In this document: positions 1-64,000 of the stretch, piece by piece
Layout: each line of letters starts with the position of its first letter
How positions within the stretch are numbered: the first letter of the stretch is position 1
NCBI GenBank assembly: GCA_026745465.1
Contig: JACYXH010000216.1
Coordinates: 2,993,501 to 3,057,500, forward strand
Reading direction: 5' to 3'
DNA: 64,000 nucleotides
Origin: Lota lota
Lineage: Eukaryota; Chordata; Actinopteri; Gadiformes; Lotidae
The notes under the pieces: model-generated
What the model saw: the letters and a program-made list of their open reading frames with translations, nothing else
What the model was told of the DNA's origin: nothing
Databases searched by the model: none
Program-made: the position numbers and the translations under genes

Positions 1-25
1 TAGCCTACTCACTTCAATATTGTGA

Positions 26-48
26 TTTCCTCCGGCAATGCACTGTAG
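26..48 (+). promoter_or_regulatory. SPH/ZNF143-like distal sequence element of U4 copy 1
   Basis: The segment reads TTTCCTCCGGCAATGCACTG and on to TAG. Its core CAATGCACTG resembles the SPH motif bound by ZNF143/Staf, which activates vertebrate snRNA genes. It lies at -224 to -202, the usual distal-element distance. The same element recurs at the same offset in all units with a 602-bp or 598-bp spacing (for example 628-650, 1744-1766, 5264-5286). It is missing from the three 514-bp units. No perfect octamer lies beside it; an octamer-like ATGCAATA occurs about 100 bp further upstream. Assigned by motif likeness and position only. Confidence 0.6.
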
Positions 49-191
49 ATCTCAGAAATTTGTTTTTCATTAAACCTCTGTTGATGTATTTAACAAATGT
101 GAGACGATATTACTTGAATAACTTCTACAGTATGTGCTATGCTCACCTAAACTAGTGCTTATCATCAAATGTTCAGAAACGGACGCATAAA

Positions 192-210
192 ACCCTTGTG
201 TAAGAGGTTG
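192..210 (+). promoter_or_regulatory. Proximal sequence element (PSE) of U4 copy 1
   Basis: ACCCTTGTGTAAGAGGTTG lies at -58 to -40 from the RNA start and resembles the human U1 PSE (ACC, GTGTGTAA, GAG spacing). This is the SNAPc-binding position of vertebrate snRNA promoters. No TATA box follows at -25, which fits RNA polymerase II rather than III. The element is unchanged in every one of the 16 copies, including those that lost the distal element. Confidence 0.7.
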
Positions 211-249
211 TTGTCAACGACAAGATGCTCTGTCAAAGGCAGTGACTTT

Positions 250-395
250 ATCTTTGCGCAGCGGCAGTATCGTAGTCTATGAGGTCTAACTGAGGCGCGA
301 TTATTGCTAGTTGAAAACTTTACCCAATACCCCGCCAAAGACGACTTGCAATATAGTCGGCAATGGCAATTTTTGACAGTTTCTAAGGAAGCTGA
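250..395 (+). ncRNA. U4 spliceosomal snRNA, copy 1
   Basis: U4 pairs with U6 in the U4/U6.U5 tri-snRNP and keeps U6 inactive until spliceosome activation. The copy aligns along its whole length with human U4. It has the 5' U6-pairing region (TTTGCGCAG), the 5' stem-loop with the 15.5K kink-turn (two GA steps around a short loop), the stem I strand (TTGCTAGT), the central stem-loop (CGACT/AGTCG), the Sm site AATTTTTGA and the terminal hairpin CAGTTTC/GAAGCTG. Length is 146 nt against about 145 in human; the extra base is after CCGCC. This copy alone has C27T, turning one kink-turn stem pair into U-G. PSE at 192-210, distal element at 26-48, 3' box at 402-413. Confidence 0.96.
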
Positions 396-401
396 TATAA
401 T

Positions 402-413
402 GTTGAAAATATC
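402..413 (+). terminator. snRNA 3' box of U4 copy 1
   Basis: GTTGAAAATATC begins 7 nt after the RNA end and resembles the vertebrate snRNA 3' box (GTTT, a short gap, then AAA with purines), which directs Integrator-dependent 3' end formation. It recurs at the same offset in 15 copies. The copy at 4890 has a changed version here (TCCAAAAAATG). Copy 16 has GTTGGAAATATC. Confidence 0.6.
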
Positions 414-851
414 TTCTATTACCACTCTCTTCGATATGAGTTAATGTTGTAGGAATTCTAAAGTGTAGTGTTTTCTTACGTTGGTATGATCTAGGCCTAC
501 TGTATGACAAACAATAGTACTACATGCAATATTAGCCCAACATAACAGTAGTAAGTCAAGTTTTAGGTAAGCAAGGCTTTCCCATATAAATGACATGGGC
601 GGTATCCTACTCACTTCATTATTGTGATTTCCTCCGGCAATGCACTGTAGATCTCAGAAATTTGTTTTTCATTAAACCTCTGTTGATGTATTTAACAAAT
701 GTGAGACGATATTACTTGAATAACTTCTACAGTATGTGCTATGCTCACCTAAACTAGTGCTTATAATCAAATGTTCAGAAACTGACACATAAAACCCTTG
801 TGTAAGAGGTTGTTGTCAACGACAAGGTGTTCTGTCAAAGGCAGTGACTTT

Positions 852-997
852 ATCTTTGCACAGCGGCAGTATCGTAGCCTATGAGGTCTAACTGAGGCGC
901 GATTATTGCTAGTTGAAAACTTTACCCAATACCCCGCCAAAGACGACTTGCAATATAGTCGGCAATGGCAATTTTTGACAGTTTCTAAGGAAGCTGA
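852..997 (+). ncRNA. U4 snRNA, copy 2 (G9A subtype)
   Basis: Full-length U4 with intact kink-turn, Sm site and terminal hairpin. Base 9 of the RNA (position 860) is A instead of G, so the 5' region reads TTTGCACAG. In the family G9 pairs with a C of U6 in U4/U6 stem II, so this copy should have an A-C mismatch there. The promoter side also has its own signature (AATCAAATG and CTGACAC upstream). PSE at 794-812, distal element at 628-650. Either a functional variant or a copy on its way to loss. Confidence 0.94.
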
Positions 998-1365
998 TAT
1001 AATGTTGAAAATATCTTCTCTTACCACTCTCTACGATACGAAATAGTGTTGTAGGAATTCTAAAGTGTAGTGTTTTCTTACGTTGGTATGATCTAGGCCT
1101 ACAGTTTGACAAACAATAGTACTACATGCAATATTAGCCCAACATAACAGTAGTAAGTCAAGTTTTAGGTAAGCAAGGCTTTCCCAAATGTTTTCCCAAG
1201 AGGCTTTCCCAAATGTGAGACGATATTACTTGAATAACTTCTACAGTATGTGCTATGCTCACCTAAACTAGTGCTTATCATCAAATGTTCAGAAACGGAC
1301 GCATAAAACCCTTGTGTAAGAGGTTGTTGTCAACGACAAGATGCTCTGTCAAAGGCAGTGACTTT

Positions 1366-1511
1366 ATCTTTGCGCAGCGGCAGTATCGTAGCCTATGAGG
1401 TCTAACTGAGGCGCGATTATTGCTAGTTGAAAACTTTACCCAATACCCCGCCAAAGACGACTTGCAATATAGTCGGCAATGGCAATTTTTGACAGTATCT
1501 AAGGAAGCTGA
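1366..1511 (+). ncRNA. U4 snRNA, copy 3 (short promoter, no distal element)
   Basis: Full-length RNA with canonical G9. The terminal hairpin carries one T-to-A change (CAGTATC/GAAGCTG), leaving an A-A mismatch. The unit is 514 bp: 88 bp including the SPH-like element are gone, and the join lies between two copies of GGCTTTCCCAAATGT near 1181-1217. The PSE at 1308-1326 is intact. Transcription would depend on the PSE alone or on a neighbour's distal element. Confidence 0.93.
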
Positions 1512-1967
1512 TATAATGTTGAAAATATCTTCTCTTACCACTCTCTACGACATAAATTAATGTTGTAGGAATTCTGAAATTTACTGCTTTCTTATGTTGG
1601 TATGATCTAGGCCTAATGTTTGATATACAATAGTACTACATGCAATATTAGGCCAACATAACAGTAGTAAGTCAAGTTTTAGGTAAGCAAGGCTTTCCCA
1701 TATTAATGACATGGGCGGTAGCCTACTCACTTCATTATTGTGATTTCCTCCGGCAATGCACTGTAGATCTCAGAAATTAGTTTTTCATTAAACCTCTGTT
1801 GATGTATTAAACAAATGTGAGACGATATTACTTGAATAACTTCTACAGTATGTGCTATGCTCACCTAAACTAGTGCTTATCATCAAATGTTCAGAAACGG
1901 ACGCATAAAACCCTTGTGTAAGAGGTTGTTGTCAACGACAAGATGCTCTGTCAAAGGCAGTGACTTT

Positions 1968-2113
1968 ATCTTTGCGCAGCGGCAGTATCGTAGCCTATGA
2001 GGTCTAACTGAGGCGTGATTATTGCTAGTTGAAAACTTTACCCAATACCCCGCCAAAGACGACTTGCAATATAGTCGGCAATGGCAATTTTTGACAGTTT
2101 CTAAGGAAGCTGA
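1968..2113 (+). ncRNA. U4 snRNA, copy 4
   Basis: Full-length U4 with canonical G9. The 5' stem-loop closing strand is GTGAT rather than GCGAT, which turns a G-C pair into G-U. PSE at 1910-1928 and distal element at 1744-1766 are intact, and the 3' box is at 2120-2131. This form of the RNA is the commonest in the array (copies 4, 6, 7, 9, 11-13, 15, 16 share GTGAT). Confidence 0.95.
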
Positions 2114-2569
2114 TATAATGTTGAAAATATCTTCTATTACCACTCTCTACGATATGAATTAATGTTGTAGGAATTCTAAAGTGTAGTGTTTTCTTACGTT
2201 GGTATGATCTAGGCCTACTGTATGACAAACAATAGTACTACATGCAATATTAGCCCAACATAACAGTAGTAAGTCAAGTTTTAGGTAAGCAAGGCTTTCC
2301 CATATAAATGACATGGGCGGTATCCTACTCACTTCATTATTGTGATTTCCTCCGGCAATGCACTGTAGATCTCAGAAATTTGTTTTTCATTAAACCTCTG
2401 TTGATGTATTTAACAAATGTGAGACGATATTACTTGAATAACTTCTACAGTATGTGCTATGCTCACCTAAACTAGTGCTTATAATCAAATGTTCAGAAAC
2501 TGACACATAAAACCCTTGTGTAAGAGGTTGTTGTCAACGACAAGGTGTTCTGTCAAAGGCAGTGACTTT

Positions 2570-2715
2570 ATCTTTGCACAGCGGCAGTATCGTAGCCTAT
2601 GAGGTCTAACTGAGGCGCGATTATTGCTAGTTGAAAACTTTACCCAATACCCCGCCAAAGACGACTTGCAATATAGTCGGCAATGGCAATTTTTGACAGT
2701 TTCTAAGGAAGCTGA
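2570..2715 (+). ncRNA. U4 snRNA, copy 5 (G9A subtype, chimeric unit)
   Basis: The upstream half and the RNA match the G9A subtype (copies 2, 8, 14), with A at base 9. The 3' flank, however, matches the flank of copy 3 (ACGACATAAATTAATG and ATTTACTGC) instead of the flank of the other G9A copies. That mixed state suggests a crossover or gene conversion within or just after the RNA. PSE at 2512-2530, distal element at 2346-2368. Confidence 0.94.
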
Positions 2716-3171
2716 TATAATGTTGAAAATATCTTCTCTTACCACTCTCTACGACATAAATTAATGTTGTAGGAATTCTGAAATTTACTGCTTTCTTACG
2801 TTGGTATGATCTACGCCTAATGTTTGATATACAATAGTACTACATGCAATATTAGGCCAACATAACAGTAGTAAGTCAAGTTTTAGGTAAGCAAGGCTTT
2901 CCCATATTAATGACATGGGCGGTAGCCTACTCACTTCATTATTGTGATTTCCTCCGGCAATGCACTGTAGATCTCAGAAATTTGTTTTTCATTAAACCTC
3001 TGTTGATGTATTTAACAAATGTGAGACCATATTACTTGAATAACTTCTACAGTATGTGCTATGCTCACCTAAACTAGTGCTTATCATCAAATGTTCAGAA
3101 ACGGACGCATAAAACCCTTGTGTAAGAGGTTGTTGTCAACGACAAGATGCTCTGTCAAAGGCAGTGACTTT

Positions 3172-3317
3172 ATCTTTGCGCAGCGGCAGTATCGTAGCCT
3201 ATGAGGTCTAACTGAGGCGTGATTATTGCTAGTTGAAAACTTTACCCAATACCCCGCCAAAGACGATTTGCAATATAGTCGGCAATGGCAATTTTTGACA
3301 GTTTCTAAGGAAGCTGA
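3172..3317 (+). ncRNA. U4 snRNA, copy 6
   Basis: Full-length, canonical G9, GTGAT form. It has one C-to-T change in the central stem-loop (CGATTTGCAATATAGTCG), giving a U-G wobble that keeps the stem. The same change is in copy 12, exactly one higher-order period (3520 bp) downstream. PSE at 3114-3132, distal element at 2948-2970. Confidence 0.95.
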
Positions 3318-3773
3318 TATAATGTTGAAAATATCTTCTATTACCACTCTCTACGATATGAATTAATGTTGTAGGAATTCTAAAGTGTAGTGTTTTCTTA
3401 CGTTGGTATGATCTAGGTCTACTGTTTGACAAACAATAGTACTACATGCAATATTAGCCCAACATAACAGTAGTAAGTCAAGTTTTAGGTAGGCAAGGCT
3501 TTCCCATATTAATGACATGGGCGGTAGCCTACTCACTTCATTATTGTGATTTCCTCCGGCAATGCACTGTAGATCTCAGAAATTTGTTTTTCATAAAACC
3601 TCTGTTGATGTATTTAACAAATGTGAGACGATATTACTTGAATAACTTCTACAGTATGTGCTATGCTCACCTAAACTAGTGCTTATCATCAAATGTTCAG
3701 AAACGGACGCATAAAACCCTTGTGTAAGAGGTTGTTGTCAACGACAAGATGCTCTGTCAAAGGCAGTGACTTT

Positions 3774-3919
3774 ATCTTTGCGCAGCGGCAGTATCGTAGC
3801 CTATGAGGTCTAACTGAGGCGTGATTATTGCTAGTTGAAAACTTTACCCAATACCCCGCCAAAGACGACTTGCAATATAGTCGGCAATGGCAATTTTTGA
3901 CAGTTTCTAAGGAAGCTGA
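3774..3919 (+). ncRNA. U4 snRNA, copy 7
   Basis: Full-length, canonical G9, GTGAT form, all structural elements present. Its place in the six-unit higher-order repeat corresponds to copies 1 and 13. PSE at 3716-3734, distal element at 3550-3572, 3' box at 3926-3937. Confidence 0.95.
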
Positions 3920-4375
3920 TATAATGTTGAAAATATCTTCTATTACCACTCTCTACGATATGAATTAATGTTGTAGGAATTCTAAAGTGTAGTGTTTTCT
4001 TACGTTGGTATGATCTAGGCCTACTGTATGACAAACAATAGTACTACATGCAATATTAGCCCAACATAACAGTAGTAAGTCAAGTTTTAGGTAAGCAAGG
4101 CTTTCCCATATAAATGACATGGGCGGTATCCTACTCACTTCATTATTGTGATTTCCTCCGGCAATGCACTGTAGATCTCAGAAATTTGTTTTTCATTAAA
4201 CCTCTGTTGATGTATTTAACAAATGTGAGACGATATTACTTGAATAACTTCTACAGTATGTGCTATGCTCACCTAAACTAGTGCTTATAATCAAATGTTC
4301 AGAAACTGACACATAAAACCCTTGTGTAAGAGGTTGTTGTCAACGACAAGGTGTTCTGTCAAAGGCAGTGACTTT

Positions 4376-4521
4376 ATCTTTGCACAGCGGCAGTATCGTA
4401 GCCTATGAGGTCTAACTGAGGCGCGATTATTGCTAGTTGAAAACTTTACCCAATACCCCGCCAAAGACGACTTTCAATATAGTCGGCAATGGCAATTTTT
4501 GACAGTTTCTAAGGAAGCTGA
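4376..4521 (+). ncRNA. U4 snRNA, copy 8 (G9A subtype)
   Basis: A at base 9 as in copies 2, 5 and 14. It also has a private G-to-T change in the loop of the central stem-loop (CGACTTTCAATATAGTCG), which leaves the stem intact. PSE at 4318-4336, distal element at 4152-4174. The next unit is again the short 514-bp form, as after copies 2 and 14. Confidence 0.94.
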
Positions 4522-4889
4522 TATAATGTTGAAAATATCTTCTCTTACCACTCTCTACGATACGAATTAATGTTGTAGGAATTCTAAAGTGTAGTGTTTT
4601 CTTACGTTGGTATGATCTAGGCCTACAGTTTGACAAACAATAGTACTACATGCAATATTAGCCCAACATAACAGTAGTAAGTCAAGTTTTAGGTAAGCAA
4701 GGCTTTCCCAAATGTTTTCCCAAGAGGCTTTCCCAAATGTGAGACGATATTACTTGAATAACTTCTACAGTATGTGCTATGCTCACCTAAACTAGTGCTT
4801 ATAATCAAATTTTCAGAAACGTACGCATAAAACCCTTGTGTAAGAGGTTGTTGTCAACGACAAGACGCTCTGTCAAAGGAAGTGACTTT

Positions 4890-5035
4890 ATCTTTGCGCA
4901 GCGGCAGTATCGTAGCCTATGAGGTCTAACTGAGGCGTGATTATTGCTAGTTGAAAACTTTACCCAATACCCCGCCAAAGACGACTTGCAATATAGTCGG
5001 CAATGGCAATTTTTGACAGTTTCGAAGGAGACTGA
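4890..5035 (+). ncRNA. U4 snRNA, copy 9 (divergent, short promoter)
   Basis: The most divergent full-length copy. The terminal hairpin reads CAGTTTC, GAAG loop, GAGACTG and still pairs, with the base differences falling in pairing-compatible places. The 3' flank is changed (TCCAAAAAATG in place of the usual 3' box), so 3' end formation could be altered. It is preceded by a 514-bp unit without the SPH-like element; the PSE at 4832-4850 is intact. G9 is canonical and the kink-turn and Sm site are intact. Confidence 0.92.
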
Positions 5036-5487
5036 TATAATGTCCAAAAAATGTTTTAGTTTCTCTACCCTTCGGATGTATGTTGTAGAGACTCTGAAAT
5101 GTACTGTTTTCTTATGTTGGTATGATCTAGGCCTACTGTTTGATGAAAAATAGTACTACATGCAATATTAGCACAACATAACAGTAGTAAGTCAAGTTTT
5201 AGGTAAGCTAGGCTTTCCCATATTAATGACATGGGCGTTAGCCTACTCACTTCATTATTGTGATTTCCTCCGGCAATGCACTGTAGATCTCAGATATTTG
5301 TTTTTCATTAAACCTCTGCTGATGTATTTAACAAATGTGAGACAATATTATTTAAGTAACTACTACATTATCCGCTATACTAAACTAAAGTAGTGCTTAT
5401 AATCAAATGTTCAGAAACGTACGCATAAAACCCTTGTGTAAGAGGTTGTTGTCAACTACAAGGTGTTCTGTCAAAGGCCGTGACTTT

Positions 5488-5633
5488 ATCTTTGCGCAGC
5501 GGCAGTATCGTAGCCTATGAGGTTTAACTGAGGCGCGATTATTGCTAGTTGAAAACTTTACCCAATACCCCGCCAAAGACGACTTGCAATATAGTCGGCA
5601 ATGGCAATTTTTGACAGTTTCTAAGGAAGCTGA
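5488..5633 (+). ncRNA. U4 snRNA, copy 10
   Basis: Full-length, canonical G9, GCGAT form, with TTTAAC rather than TCTAAC in the kink-turn loop. The spacer just upstream (about 5290-5400) has many private changes and the unit is 598 bp, 4 bp short. PSE at 5430-5448 and distal element at 5264-5286 are intact. Together with copy 9 it marks an older, less homogenised stretch in the middle of the array. Confidence 0.94.
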
Positions 5634-6089
5634 TATAATGTTGAAAATATCTTCTCTTACCACTCTCTACGACATAAATTAATGTTGTAGGAATTCTGAA
5701 ATTTACTGCTTTCTTACGTTGGTATGATCTAGGCCTAATGTTTGATATACAATAGTACTACATGCAATATTAGGCCAACATAACAGTAGTAAGTCAAGTT
5801 GTAGGTAAGCAAGGCTTTCCCATATTAATGACATGGGCGGTAGCCTACTCACTTCATTATTGTGATTTCCTCCGGCAATGCACTGTAGATCTCAGAAATT
5901 TGTTTTTCATTAAACCTCTGTTGATGTATTTAACAAATGTGAGACGATATTACTTGAATAACTTCTACAGTATGTGCTATGCTCACCTAAACTAGTGCTT
6001 ATCATCAAATGTTCAGAAACGGACGCATAAAACCCTTGTGTAAGAGGTTGTTGTCAACGACAAGATGCTCTGTCAAAGGCAGTGACTTT

Positions 6090-6235
6090 ATCTTTGCGCA
6101 GCGGCAGTATCGTAGCCTATGAGGTCTAACTGAGGCGTGATTATTGCTAGTTGAAAACTTTACCCAATACCCCGCCAAAGACGACTTGCAATATAGTCGG
6201 CAATGGCAATTTTTGACAGTTTCTAAGGAAGCTGA
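6090..6235 (+). ncRNA. U4 snRNA, copy 11
   Basis: Full-length, canonical G9, GTGAT form, no private change noticed in the RNA. Nearly identical to copies 4 and 7 across gene and spacer. PSE at 6032-6050, distal element at 5866-5888. Confidence 0.95.
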
Positions 6236-6691
6236 TATAATGTTGAAAATATCTTCTATTACCACTCTCTACGATATGAATTAATGTTGTAGGAATTCTA
6301 AAGTGTAGTGTTTTCTTACGTTGGTATGATCTAGGCCTACTGTTTGACAAACAATAGTACTACATGCAATATTAGCCCAACATAACAGTAGTAAGTCTAG
6401 TTTTAGGTAAGCAAGGCTTTCCCATATTAATGACATGGGCGGTAGCCTACTCACTTCATTATTGTGATTTCCTCCGGCAATGCACTGTAGATCTCAGAAA
6501 TTTGTTTTTCATAAAACCTCTGTTGATGTATTTAACAAATGTGAGACGATATAACTTGAATAACTTCTACAGTATGTGCTATGCTCACCTAAACTAGTGC
6601 TTATCATCAAATGTTCAGAAACGGACGCATAAAACCCTTGTGTAAGAGGTTGTTGTCAACGACAAGATGCTCTGTCAAAGGCAGTGACTTT

Positions 6692-6837
6692 ATCTTTGCG
6701 CAGCGGCAGTATCGTAGCCTATGAGGTCTAACTGAGGCGTGATTATTGCTAGTTGAAAACTTTACCCAATACCCCGCCAAAGACGATTTGCAATATAGTC
6801 GGCAATGGCAATTTTTGACAGTTTCTAAGGAAGCTGA
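6692..6837 (+). ncRNA. U4 snRNA, copy 12
   Basis: Shares with copy 6 the C-to-T change in the central stem-loop, placed exactly 3520 bp downstream of it. Both preceding spacers also share CATAAAACC where most copies have CATTAAACC. Full-length, canonical G9. PSE at 6634-6652, distal element at 6468-6490. Confidence 0.95.
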
Positions 6838-7293
6838 TATAATGTTGAAAATATCTTCTATTACCACTCTCTACGATATGAATTAATGTTGTAGGAATTC
6901 TAAAGTGTAGTGTTTTCTTACGTTGGTATGATCTAGGCCTACTGTTTGACAAACAATAGTACTACATGCAATATTAGCCCAGCATAACAGTAGTAAGTCT
7001 AGTTTTAGGTAAGCAAGGCTTTCCCATATTAATGACATGGGCGGTAGCCTACTCACTTCATTATTGTGATTTCCTCCGGCAATGCACTGTAGATCTCAGA
7101 AATTTGTTTTTCATTAAACCTCTGTTGATGTATTTAACAAATGTGAGACGATATTACTTGAATAACTTCTACAGTATGTGCTATGCTCACCTAAACTAGT
7201 GCTTATCATCAAATGTTCAGAAACGGACGCATAAAACCCTTGTGTAAGAGGTTGTTGTCAACGACAAGATGCTCTGCCAAAGGCAGTGACTTT

Positions 7294-7439
7294 ATCTTTG
7301 CGCAGCGGCAGTATCGTAGCCTATGAGGTCTAACTGAGGCGTGATTATTGCTAGTTAAAAACTTTACCCAATACCCCGCCAAAGACGACTTGCAATATAG
7401 TCGGCAATGGCAATTTTTGACAGTTTCTAAGGAAGCTGA
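7294..7439 (+). ncRNA. U4 snRNA, copy 13 (G64A)
   Basis: Full-length, canonical G9, GTGAT form, with a private G-to-A change at base 64 (TAGTTAAAAAC). In human U4 this is the single-stranded stretch after stem I, inside the region (about n.62-79) where de novo RNU4-2 variants cause disease. Whether this copy is used cannot be told. PSE at 7236-7254, distal element at 7070-7092. Its place in the higher-order repeat matches copies 1 and 7. Confidence 0.94.
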
Positions 7440-7895
7440 TATAATGTTGAAAATATCTTCTATTACCATTCTCTTCGATATGAATTAATGTTGTAGGAAT
7501 TCTAAAGTGTAGTGTTTTCTTACGTTGGTATGATCTAGGCCTACTGTATGACAAACAATAGTACTACATGCAATATTAGCCCAACATAACAGTAGTAAGT
7601 CAAGTTTTAGGTAAGCAAGGCTTTCCCATATAAATGACATGGGCGGTATCCTACTCACTTCATTATTGTGATTTCCTCCGGCAATGCACTGTAGATCTCA
7701 GAAATTTGTTTTTCATTAAACCTCTGTTGATGTATTTAACAAATGTGAGACGATATTACTTGAATAACTTCTACAGTATGTGCTATGCTCACCTAAACTA
7801 GTGCTTATAATCAAATGTTCAGAAACTGACACATAAAACCCTTGTGTAAGAGGTTGTTGTCAACGACAAGGTGTTCTGTCAAAGGCAGTGACTTT

Positions 7896-8041
7896 ATCTT
7901 TGCACAGCGGCAGTATCGTAGCCTATGAGGTCTAACTGAGGCGCGATTATTGCTAGTTGAAAACTTTACCCAATACCCCGCCAAAGACGACTTGCAATAT
8001 AGTCGGCAATGGCAATTTTTGACAGTTTCTAAGGAAGCTGA
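7896..8041 (+). ncRNA. U4 snRNA, copy 14 (G9A subtype)
   Basis: A at base 9, with the same upstream signature as copies 2, 5 and 8. Its 3' flank matches copy 2 (ACGATACGAAATAG), 7044 bp away, which is two higher-order periods. PSE at 7838-7856, distal element at 7672-7694. Followed by the short 514-bp unit. Confidence 0.94.
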
Positions 8042-8409
8042 TATAATGTTGAAAATATCTTCTATTACCACTCTCTACGATACGAAATAGTGTTGTAGGA
8101 ATTCTAAAGTGTAGTGTTTTCTTACGTTGGTATGATCTAGGCCTACAGTTTGACAAACAATAGTACTACATGCAATATTAGCCCAACATAACAGTAGTAA
8201 GTCAAGTTTTAGGTAAGCAAGGCTTTCCCAAATGTTTTCCCAAGAGGCTTTCCCAAATGTGAGACGATATTACTTGAATAACTTCTACAGTATGTGCTAT
8301 GCTCACCTAAACTAGTGCTTATCATCAAATGTTCAGAAACGGACGCATAAAACCCTTGTGTAAGAGGTTGTTGTCAACGACAAGATGCTCTGTCAAAGGC
8401 AGTGACTTT

Positions 8410-8555
8410 ATCTTTGCGCAGCGGCAGTATCGTAGCCTATGAGGTCTAACTGAGGCGTGATTATTGCTAGTTGAAAACTTTACCCAATACCCCGCCAAAG
8501 ACGACTTGCAATATAGTCGGCAATGGCAATTTTTGACAGTTTCTAAGGAAGCTGA
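8410..8555 (+). ncRNA. U4 snRNA, copy 15 (short promoter, no distal element)
   Basis: Full-length, canonical G9, GTGAT form, terminal hairpin intact. It sits in the third 514-bp unit, with the same deletion join (near 8221-8260) as copies 3 and 9, so one deleted unit was evidently copied with the higher-order repeat. PSE at 8352-8370 intact. Confidence 0.94.
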
Positions 8556-9011
8556 TATAATGTTGAAAATATCTTCTCTTACCACTCTCTACGACATAAA
8601 TTAACGTTGTAGGAATTCTGAAATGTACTGCTTTCTTACGTTGGTATGATCTAGGCCTAATGTTTGATATACAATAGTACTACATGCAATATTAGGCCAA
8701 CATAACAGTAGTAAGTCAAGTTTTAGGTAAGCAAGGCTTTCCCATATTAATGACATGGGCGGTAGCCTACTCACTTCAATATTGTGATTTCCTCCGGCAA
8801 TGCACTGTAGATCTCAGAAATTTGTTTTTCATTAAACCTCTGTTGATGTATTTAACAAATGTGAGACGATATTACTTGAATAACTTCTACAGTATGTGCT
8901 ATGCTCACCTAAACTAGTGCTTATCATCAAATGTTCAGAAACGGACGCATAAAACCCTTGTGTAAGAGGTTGTTGTCAACGACAAGATGCTCTGTCAAAG
9001 GCAGTGACTTT

Positions 9012-9157
9012 ATCTTTGCGCAGCGGCAGTATCGTAGCCTATGAGGTCTAACTGAGGCGTGATTATTGCTAGTTGAAAACTTTACCCAATACCCCGCCAA
9101 AGACGACTTGCAATATAGTCGGCAATGGCAATTTTTGACAGTTTCTAAGGAAGCTGA
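9012..9157 (+). ncRNA. U4 snRNA, copy 16 (last complete copy)
   Basis: Full-length, canonical G9, GTGAT form. PSE at 8954-8972, distal element at 8788-8810. The 3' flank follows the array consensus only to about 9195, with GTTGGAAATATC as 3' box, and then turns into the decayed terminal copy. So the array boundary lies about 40 bp past this RNA. Confidence 0.95.
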
Positions 9158-9285
9158 TATAATGTTGGAAATATCTTCTCTTACCACTCTCTACATATGC
9201 GTTCATGTTGTAGTGGTGAGTGTATTTATTCAGCATACAACCTTCGTGTATCACCACTAGATGCTCTTTCAATCACTATTCCATT

Positions 9286-9365
9286 ATCCTTGCGCAGCGG
9301 CAGTATCGTAGCCTATGGTGTCTAACCGTCCATTTCTGCTATTTGAAAATTGTACCCAAACGGAT
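9286..9365 (+). pseudogene. Decayed U4 copy at the array edge
   Basis: The first 41 bp (9286-9326) match U4 closely through GCGCAGCGGCAGTATCGTAG, then the kink-turn GAGG becomes GGTG. After that only scattered likeness remains (TTTGAAAATTGTACCCAAA near 9341-9359). The Sm site and the terminal hairpin are not recognisable. A degraded PSE-like stretch (AACCTTCGTGTATCACCAC) lies upstream at about 9239-9257. It is an old edge unit no longer reached by homogenisation. Confidence 0.85.
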
Positions 9366-9491
9366 TGATTACATACAAATAACACTAAACATCGTTTTTG
9401 TCAATGCTCAAAAGTTAAATTACAACATTGTTTTGTGTGACGTTTCTTTTTTTCGTTTTTATTTAGGCTACCTTGTTATTTTATCAGTGTA

Positions 9492-9499
9492 ATTTGCAT
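9492..9499 (+). promoter_or_regulatory. Octamer motif ATTTGCAT
   Basis: A perfect octamer (POU-factor site), 16 bp before the CTCF-like site and about 130 bp after the decayed U4. Octamers are typical of snRNA distal elements, but the array units here have none that is perfect. It may be a relic of an older snRNA promoter or chance. Confidence 0.35.
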
Positions 9500-9514
9500 G
9501 GCCTCTAACCCTAA

Positions 9515-9528
9515 CCACTAGATGGCAC
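9515..9528 (+). promoter_or_regulatory. CTCF-like site flanking the U4 array
   Basis: CCACTAGATGGCAC fits the vertebrate CTCF core (CCASYAGRKGGC) at every position. It lies about 150 bp past the last U4-like sequence, where a cluster boundary or insulator could act. Assigned by motif only. Confidence 0.5.
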
Positions 9529-15619
<6,091 letters not shown>

Positions 15620-32121: not shown

Positions 32122-33546
32122 TGCTTATTAAGGTAATTGCTAGTGAAGGTGCTTATTAAGGTCACTGCTAGTGAAGGTGCTTATTAAGGTCACTGCTAGT
32201 GAAGGTGCTTATTAAGGTCACTGCTAGTGAAGGTGCTTATTAAGGTCACTGCTAGTGAAGGTGCTTATTAAGGTCACTGCTAGTGAAGGTGCTTATTAAG
32301 GTCACTGCTAGTGAAGGTGCTTATTAAGGGTACTGCTAGTGAAGGTGCTTATTAAGGTCAATGCTAGTGAAGGTGCTTATTAAGGGTACTGCTAGTGAAG
32401 GTGCTTATTAAGGTCACTGCTAGTGAAGGTGCTTATTAAGGTTATTGCTAGTGAAGGTGCTTATTAAGGTTACTGCTAGTGAAGGTGCTTATTAAGGTTA
32501 CTGCTAGTGAAGGTGCTTATTAAGGTCACTGCTAGTGAAGGTGCTTATTAAGGTCACTGCTAGTGAAGGCGCTTATTAAGGTCACTGCTAGTGAAGGTGC
32601 TTATTAAGGTTATTGCTAGTGAAGGTGCTTATTAAGGTTACTGCTAGTGAAGGTGCTTATTAAGGTCACTGCTAGTGAAGGTGCTTATTAAGGTCACTGC
32701 TAGTGAAGGTGCTTATTAAGGTCACTGCTAGTGAAGGTGCTTATTAAGGTTACTGCTAGTGAAGGTGCTTATTAAGGTCACTGCTAGTGAAGGTGCTTAT
32801 TAAGGTCACTGCTAGTGAAGGTGCTTATTAAGGTAATTGCTAGTGAAGGTGCTTATTAAGGTCACTGCTAGTGAAGGTGCTTATTAAGGTCACTGCTAGT
32901 GAAGGTGCTTATTAAGGTCACTGCTAGTGAAGGTGCTTATTAAGGTTACTGCTAGTGAAGGTGCTTATTAAGGGTACTGCTAGTGAAGGTGCTTATTAAG
33001 GTCACTGCTAGTGAAGGTGCTTATTAAGGTTACTGCTAGTGAAGGTGCTTATTAAGGGTACTGCTAGTGAAGGTGCTTATTAAGGTCAATGCTAGTGAAG
33101 GTGCTTATTAAGGGTACTGCAAGTGAAGGTGCTTATTAAGGTCACTGCTAGTGAAGGTGCTTATTAAGGTTATTGCTAGTGAAGGTGCTTATTAAGGTTA
33201 CTGCTAGTGAAGGTGCTTATTAAGGTTACTGCTAGTGAAGGTGCTTATTAAGGTCACTGCTAGTGAAGGTGCTTATTAAGGTCACTGCTAGTGACGGTGC
33301 TTATTAAGGTCACTGCTAGTGAAGGTGCTTATTAAGGTTACTGCTAGTGAAGGTGCTTATCAAGGTTATTGCTAGTGAAGGTGCTTATTAAGGTCACTGC
33401 TAGTGAAGGTGCTTATTAAGGTCACTGCTAGTGAAGGTGCTTATTAAGGTCACTGCTAGTGAAGGTGCTTATTAAGGTCACTGCTAGTGAAGATGCTTAT
33501 CAAGGTTACTGCTAGTGAAGGTTCTTAGGTTACTGCAAGTAACGGT
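32122..33546 (+). repeat. 28-bp minisatellite, about 51 copies
   Basis: The unit is TGCTTATTAAGGTCACTGCT plus AGTGAAGG. Variants sit at one place only: GTCACT, GTTACT, GGGTACT, GTTATT, GTAATT, GTCAAT. The variant order repeats: a block starting with AAGGG at 32326 is matched by one at 33054, 728 bp (26 units) away. The units contain stops in all frames, so it is non-coding. Confidence 0.96.

Positions 33547-44716: not shown

Positions 44717-44799
<83 letters not shown>
44717..44799 (+). repeat. (GA)n microsatellite, about 83 bp
   Basis: An uninterrupted GA run, purine-only on this strand, so a candidate triplex-forming tract. A 27-bp G run follows at 45363-45389. Confidence 0.95.

Positions 44800-59960: not shown

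Positions 59961-64000
<4,040 letters not shown>

Follow-up and report, generated by a model that had tools for sequence, protein, structure and literature searches.

Does a tandem row of U4 small nuclear RNA (snRNA) genes in the gadiform fish Lota lota provide the general U4 supply of the animal, does it serve a special stage such as the oocyte, or is it repetitive DNA that happens to carry a U4 sequence? The question was raised by an earlier note on a 64,000-nucleotide stretch of DNA (the window; C216:2993501-3057500, where C216 is contig JACYXH010000216.1 of a 575-Mb assembly), which had described at least 16 U4 genes with complete promoters and proposed a high-output locus possibly used in oocytes. 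Our analysis indicates that the row is a genuine tandem U4 cluster and most likely the main U4 supply. In its full form, the reading that we consider very probable is that the array is this teleost's main U4 snRNA cluster, made of RNA polymerase II units with a proximal sequence element (PSE) and an SPH element and grown by exchange and conversion.

Tandem snRNA genes are a known kind of locus, and here the gene is U4. Fish examples include a U2-U5 tandem cluster in Plectorhinchus (PMC3464664; statements taken from this and the other articles cited here refer to parts of their text), a U2 tandem cluster in Halobatrachus (PMC3544641), and U1 and U2 clusters located by fluorescence in situ hybridization in hake (PMC4696792). 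Because tandem rows are ordinary for other splicing RNAs, a row of U4 genes looks like a main U4 supply. The array resembles these teleost clusters, which are taken to undergo concerted evolution, as a tandem set of probable polymerase II snRNA genes separated by spacers and preceded by a presumed PSE. It differs from them in consisting of U4 alone, in having SPH as its distal element and no exact octamer in the part covered by the window, and in that the order of units and their variants can be read. A literature search found no tandem U4 array in fish, which is weak evidence given its poor coverage of subscription papers and preprints, and relatives outside were found neither with two sequence patterns in IMG/VR nor with one in GTDB species genomes.

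Extent and RNA content of the array

A scan of the whole window against Rfam returned U4 as the sole family over its gathering score, with 16 matches on the + strand between 250 and 9153. Every one spans the full RF00015 model (1-138 of 138) at 111.1 to 118.8 bits, compared to a gathering score of 46, confirming the earlier count of 16 full U4 RNAs in one orientation. The reported 602-bp pitch holds for 11 of the 15 start-to-start intervals; three are 514 bp and one is 598 bp. The wording "at least 16" was right for full copies, but it overlooked 19 genes farther left and a decayed 17th copy (9286..9416, + strand) at the right edge of the array, which appeared at 35.3 bits, under the gathering score, in a more permissive scan of positions 1 to 12000.

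A genome search with the U4 family placed 35 of 42 scored matches on C216 between 2981523 and 3002653, all on the + strand, which supports the proposed high-output locus in the sense of a multicopy main locus. The whole array is about 21 kb long and holds 35 U4 genes, of which the window covers the last, right-hand 16. Its 34 intervals are 602 bp (23 times), 514 bp (4 times), 598 bp (twice), and 601, 603, 609, 633, and 1445 bp (once each). All U4 totals are lower bounds, because 42 of 24023 first-look candidates were scored. No tRNA gene and no non-U4 match over an Rfam gathering score was found in the array or in the 9.5 kb to its left. Human RNU4-1 and RNU4-2 are comparable as neighboring U4 genes whose RNAs are almost identical, one member of the pair being more highly expressed in brain (PMC11030480), but they are two genes, whereas the array has 35, some of them without a distal element.

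The RNA is held more constant than its surroundings. In a comparison of 15 units from the window, the RNA varies in 11 of 145 columns and the spacer in 82 of 364 (Fisher p=4e-5), and across 32 of the 34 array units, a comparison that leaves out the two leftmost units, whose spacers differ, the counts are 14 of 145 versus 107 of 363 (p=9e-7). The Sm site AAUUUUUGA is present in 35 of 35 array copies, and kink-turn bases G32, A33, G43, and A44 are present in all 8 of the 16 distinct array RNAs that were aligned, which confirms the Sm site for every copy and the kink-turn for the aligned RNAs. Pairing was counted on 12 chosen rows, namely these 8 array RNAs, both members of a class of single U4 genes (class B), and two members of a divergent class (class C), with helices defined manually from the known U4 fold and a single-sequence fold. 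Standard pairs fill 98.1% of 310 pair cells, and two-sided changes occur at three pairs (27-46, 93-110, and 132-141). For example, pair 132-141 reads U-A in the window consensus but C-G in the leftmost gene, and three other array rows have U-G. The covariation score was 0.192 compared to 0.152 for shuffled rows, a value reached by none of 500 shuffles and by no slid version. The U4 RNA is conserved relative to its spacers, and its helices are kept by compensatory change.

Bases 62 to 79 are identical in 34 of 35 copies, the exception being the copy at 7294 with G64A; the same region of human RNU4-2 is depleted of variation and linked to disease (PMC11030480). Cofold and duplex calculations with a segment of standard vertebrate U6 predict U4/U6 stems I and II, and stem II between the array type and the best-scoring U6 match of the genome (on C816) is predicted at −22.5 kcal/mol. 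The variant G9A, found in 8 of 35 array copies, weakens predicted stem II from −22.2 to −16.8 kcal/mol with the standard U6 and from −22.5 to −17.1 kcal/mol with the C816 match.

Nine distinct 142-nt RNAs occur among the 16 window copies, all on the + strand. The window consensus is carried by copies 4 (1968..2109), 7 (3774..3915), 11 (6090..6231), 15 (8410..8551, without an SPH element), and 16 (9012..9153, the final full copy). G9A with U49C marks copies 2 (852..993), 5 (2570..2711), and 14 (7896..8037), and copy 8 (4376..4517) adds G99U to these two changes. C96U is found in copies 6 (3172..3313) and 12 (6692..6833). The remaining types are copy 1 (250..391; C27U, U49C), copy 3 (1366..1507; U49C, U132A, without SPH), copy 9 (4890..5031; U135G, A141G, G142A, without SPH and the most diverged unit), copy 10 (5488..5629; C37U, U49C), and copy 13 (7294..7435), whose G64A lies in the T-loop region.

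Promoters and 3' ends

The distal promoter was read as an SPH/Staf (ZNF143) element, scored on 18 positions with a consensus from PMC5493778. It scores 16/18 at −221 in 13 of 16 window copies, while 12 of 3000 random 200-bp stretches score 16 or more. Across the whole array, 31 of 35 genes have an SPH of 15 to 17 of 18 at −217 to −238, with 17/18 in the second array gene, and both class B genes reach 16/18. None of the four 514-bp units in the array has the element (best score, 13/18, background level). In the window, these are the units of the copies at 1366, 4890, and 8410, which are 88 bp shorter and have a short repeat at the junction; in the first, at 1175..1213 (+ strand), the SPH stretch is gone and a short 12-bp repeat is found there, an arrangement that recurs at 4699-4737 and 8219-8257. 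Because SPH is missing in every 514-bp unit, the promoters are not all complete, and the description of them as such fails for 3 of the 16 window copies.

On the + strand, the SPH elements lie at 29..47 for copy 1 (16/18), 631..649 for copy 2, 1747..1765 for copy 4, 2349..2367 for copy 5, 2951..2969 for copy 6, 3553..3571 for copy 7, 4155..4173 for copy 8, 5267..5285 for copy 10, 5869..5887 for copy 11, 6471..6489 for copy 12, 7073..7091 for copy 13, 7675..7693 for copy 14, and 8791..8809 for copy 16.

Closer to the gene, the presumed PSE block of copy 1 lies at 192..207 (+ strand; −58..−43), and the identical 16 letters precede every window copy, starting on the + strand at 794, 1308, 1910, 2512, 3114, 3716, 4318, 4832, 5430, 6032, 6634, 7236, 7838, 8352, and 8954 for copies 2 to 16. 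Since this 16-letter pattern was fitted after the sequence had been seen, its own chance figures are discounted and not counted here. The longest block that does not vary among the 16 window copies is the surrounding stretch from −64 to −32 (33 nt; permutation p 0.02), and the block ACCCTTGTGTAAGAGG stands at the PSE position in 33 of 35 array genes. The leftmost gene has the 12-mer ACCATTAGAGAA at −59, of which the window copies carry a derived form. This 12-mer also occurs exactly at −64 of the U6 match on C816, which has a TATA-like stretch, and upstream of a U6-like sequence at C373:1107390. A TATA box near −30 would mark an RNA polymerase III snRNA gene, and none was seen by eye in the 16 window upstream sequences. 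In human genes, the PSE sits farther upstream in polymerase III than in polymerase II genes (PMC3499247). With this comparative support, the block is presumed to be the PSE of this fish.

Under the preferred reading, every U4 gene would be transcribed on its own by RNA polymerase II, with SNAPc acting at the PSE to start transcription and ZNF143 acting at the SPH element to raise it. Once capped, the U4 RNA would receive Sm proteins and pair with U6 in the U4/U6.U5 tri-small nuclear ribonucleoprotein, and a higher copy number would give more U4 output. Weak transcription is predicted for the four SPH-less copies, and a weaker U4/U6 stem II for the eight G9A copies.

Growth of the array and other U4 and U6 genes

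The left end of the array suggests how it grew. The leftmost gene (2981523) scores 126.3 bits against Rfam U4 and has the loop GGUCUAUCC, which we take to be close to the mammalian U4 loop; its upstream DNA, compared by eye, resembles that of the class B single genes on C791 and C756. The second gene combines the leftmost-type loop with the central stem of the array, and the loop UAACU is found from the third gene on, in 33 of 35 copies. Positions 40 and 42 accordingly read A and U in the array type, but U and C in the leftmost genes and class B. Going rightward through the first three genes, derived states appear step by step, and the array consensus differs from the leftmost gene at 12 of 145 positions. 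We infer a series from founder to derived type, its direction resting on how closely the leftmost gene resembles class B and the Rfam consensus. Expansion from a founder at the left end would have proceeded by repeated unequal exchange and gene conversion. Unit types recur as a mosaic, and two units can have as many as 69 mismatches (32 of 34 compared), as expected from these processes. The 35 genes encode 16 distinct RNAs, of which 12 occur a single time, and exact repeats in the window part reach 858 bp at most.

This series bears on the earlier suggestion of a distinct U4 lineage, which was overstated. U2 and G61 are the Rfam consensus, and C13 and U29 are not special to the window copies, because the leftmost gene and both class B genes share them. 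The difference in the kink-turn loop is real in the window copies, but it is absent from the two leftmost genes, which keep the mammal-like loop, so it arose inside the array. Judged from these comparisons, the U4 type of the window appears to be a local derivative.

Seven of the 42 scored matches lie outside the array. The two class B genes have AAUUAUUGA in place of the array Sm site, and the one on C756 has one broken pair in its 5' stem; both may be decaying. Class C comprises five matches (C151, C209, C341, C362, and C528) at 95 to 96 bits and about 76% identity to the array type, in 5-kb stretches that hold 3, 5, 5, 5, and 8 tRNA genes, respectively. The C209, C341, and C362 loci are possibly recent or assembly duplicates, because they are near copies of one another. 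Two weaker U4 sequences (69.7 and 57.0 bits) in the C151 tRNA cluster suggest that class C is an old family in partial decay. No other snRNA family scored over its gathering score in a total of 123 kb covered around three U4-bearing tRNA clusters and beside a fourth.

Class C RNAs have a changed 5' end and a compensatory pair, C27U with G46A. Four of the five strong copies carry the kink-turn change G32A, an argument against those copies being fully functional. With the standard U6, predicted stem II is −10.1 kcal/mol for class C versus −22.2 kcal/mol for the array type. Of 48 scored U6 matches, 13 were fetched, including the four best scoring, and 5 of the 13 were paired. None of these five restores full pairing of class C, the best (C816) giving −16.3 kcal/mol compared to −22.5 kcal/mol for the array type, and none makes up for the change at the class C 5' end. 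These comparisons therefore give no support to the idea that class C has co-evolved with a U6 partner.

The U6 set has features of its own. The best-scoring match (C816:2514616-2514721) carries an extra A in the U4-pairing segment (CUGCGACAAGG), and no exactly canonical U6 was present among the 13 fetched sequences. Forty-four of the 48 scored matches (C373, C245, C621, C622, C430, and C781) represent a divergent U6-like RNA of greater length, with an internal insert of about 13 nt in 9 of 9 fetched and with 21 of the 44 arranged in three runs at a pitch of about 2.3 kb. This RNA may be a pseudogene satellite or a variant U6.

Elsewhere in the window, 10 of 80 listed reading frames were given to Pfam and yielded one match, Shisa_N, in a shisal1a exon at 62871-63014, about 53 kb to the right of the array; its best match is from Merluccius polli (97%), with other teleosts at 96%. 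A minisatellite at 32122-33527 has a 28-bp unit in about 50 copies with 95% matches, and long pure or nearly pure dinucleotide repeats occur throughout the window (for example, 13904-14072, 44717-44799, and 62721-62836).

General supply, oocyte supply, or repeat

Several results weigh against a functional main U4 cluster as described above. The presumed PSE block scores 7/12 against the human consensus (PMC5493778), the same as random stretches, so the earlier report of a PSE before each copy stands for the presence of one block in 16 of 16 copies and not for its match to that consensus. The exact octamer ATGCAAAT is absent from the window part of the array; the window as a whole has 5 matches compared to 5.4 expected, with 0 inside the array. 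The SPH of the leftmost gene scores just 15/18, a level that 148 of 3000 random stretches reach or exceed. A 3' box had been reported in nearly all copies, but the candidate box does not stand out from background: it shows 3 mismatches in 14 copies and 4 in those at 4890 and 9012, a level of 3 or fewer also occurs in 970 of 3000 random stretches, and an exact search with a 3' box consensus gave 2 matches in the window and 0 in the array. For the RNA, 47 of 500 shuffles had at least as many pairs with a two-sided change (3), 256 of 500 matched or exceeded the number of pair types, and a single copy folds with an energy that is not unusual (z −1.45; 15 of 200 shuffles as low). Further U4 clusters may also exist elsewhere, given the proportion of candidates scored.

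Exact repeats of up to 858 bp in the window part could hint that the array is an assembly artefact, multiplied from a single real copy or a few, but they are shorter than ordinary long reads, and units that differ by as many as 69 bases, 16 distinct RNAs in 35 genes, and a mosaic order of types make this the least probable of the alternatives. A satellite-like repeat built on a U4 gene and mostly untranscribed is scarcely more credible. Such a repeat might contain almost identical units that exchange has spread, a decayed edge copy, four copies that lack the distal element, and one with G64A in the T-loop region, yet the RNA is constrained relative to its spacers and shows compensatory changes, with SPH in 31 and the PSE block in 33 of 35 genes.

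More serious, though still unlikely, is the proposal that the array provides a maternal type of U4, specific to the oocyte or embryo, while another U4 serves the soma. High copy number fits oocyte stockpiling, the genome contains several U4 classes, and zebrafish maternal U1, U6, and 5S genes occur in large sets, the maternal U1 and U6 genes lying in Region-2 of chromosome 4 with most tRNA genes (PMC11075544). The likeness to that region is one of high-copy fish snRNA genes, there co-located with tRNA and 5S genes; the difference is that the zebrafish genes are U1 and U6, whereas the Lota array is U4 and has no tRNA gene in it or in the 9.5 kb to its left. The U4 that has tRNA genes as neighbors, an arrangement like that of the zebrafish maternal block, is divergent class C and not the array, and the two zebrafish U4 sequences in the same article, from Region-1, are called somatic (PMC11075544). 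The array consensus, moreover, stands only 12 positions from the leftmost gene, and the array holds most of the scored U4 matches. By this analogy, class C among its tRNA genes is a better oocyte lead than the array. A more elaborate scheme, to which we give similarly little credence, would have two functional U4 systems, with the array as general supply, tRNA-embedded class C (with its compensated kink-turn stem and looser U6 pairing) acting in oocytes or early embryos, and the SPH-less and G9A array copies forming a graded series of dosage and stability.

As the probable main U4 cluster of this fish, the array offers a readable case of snRNA array growth, in which a founder-like gene is followed by an intermediate, then by derived copies, and finally by a decayed edge. 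Its SPH deletions are natural tests of ZNF143, and its copy-specific bases let RNA reads be assigned. If class C were stage-specific, the zebrafish idea of a maternal spliceosome would extend to U4.

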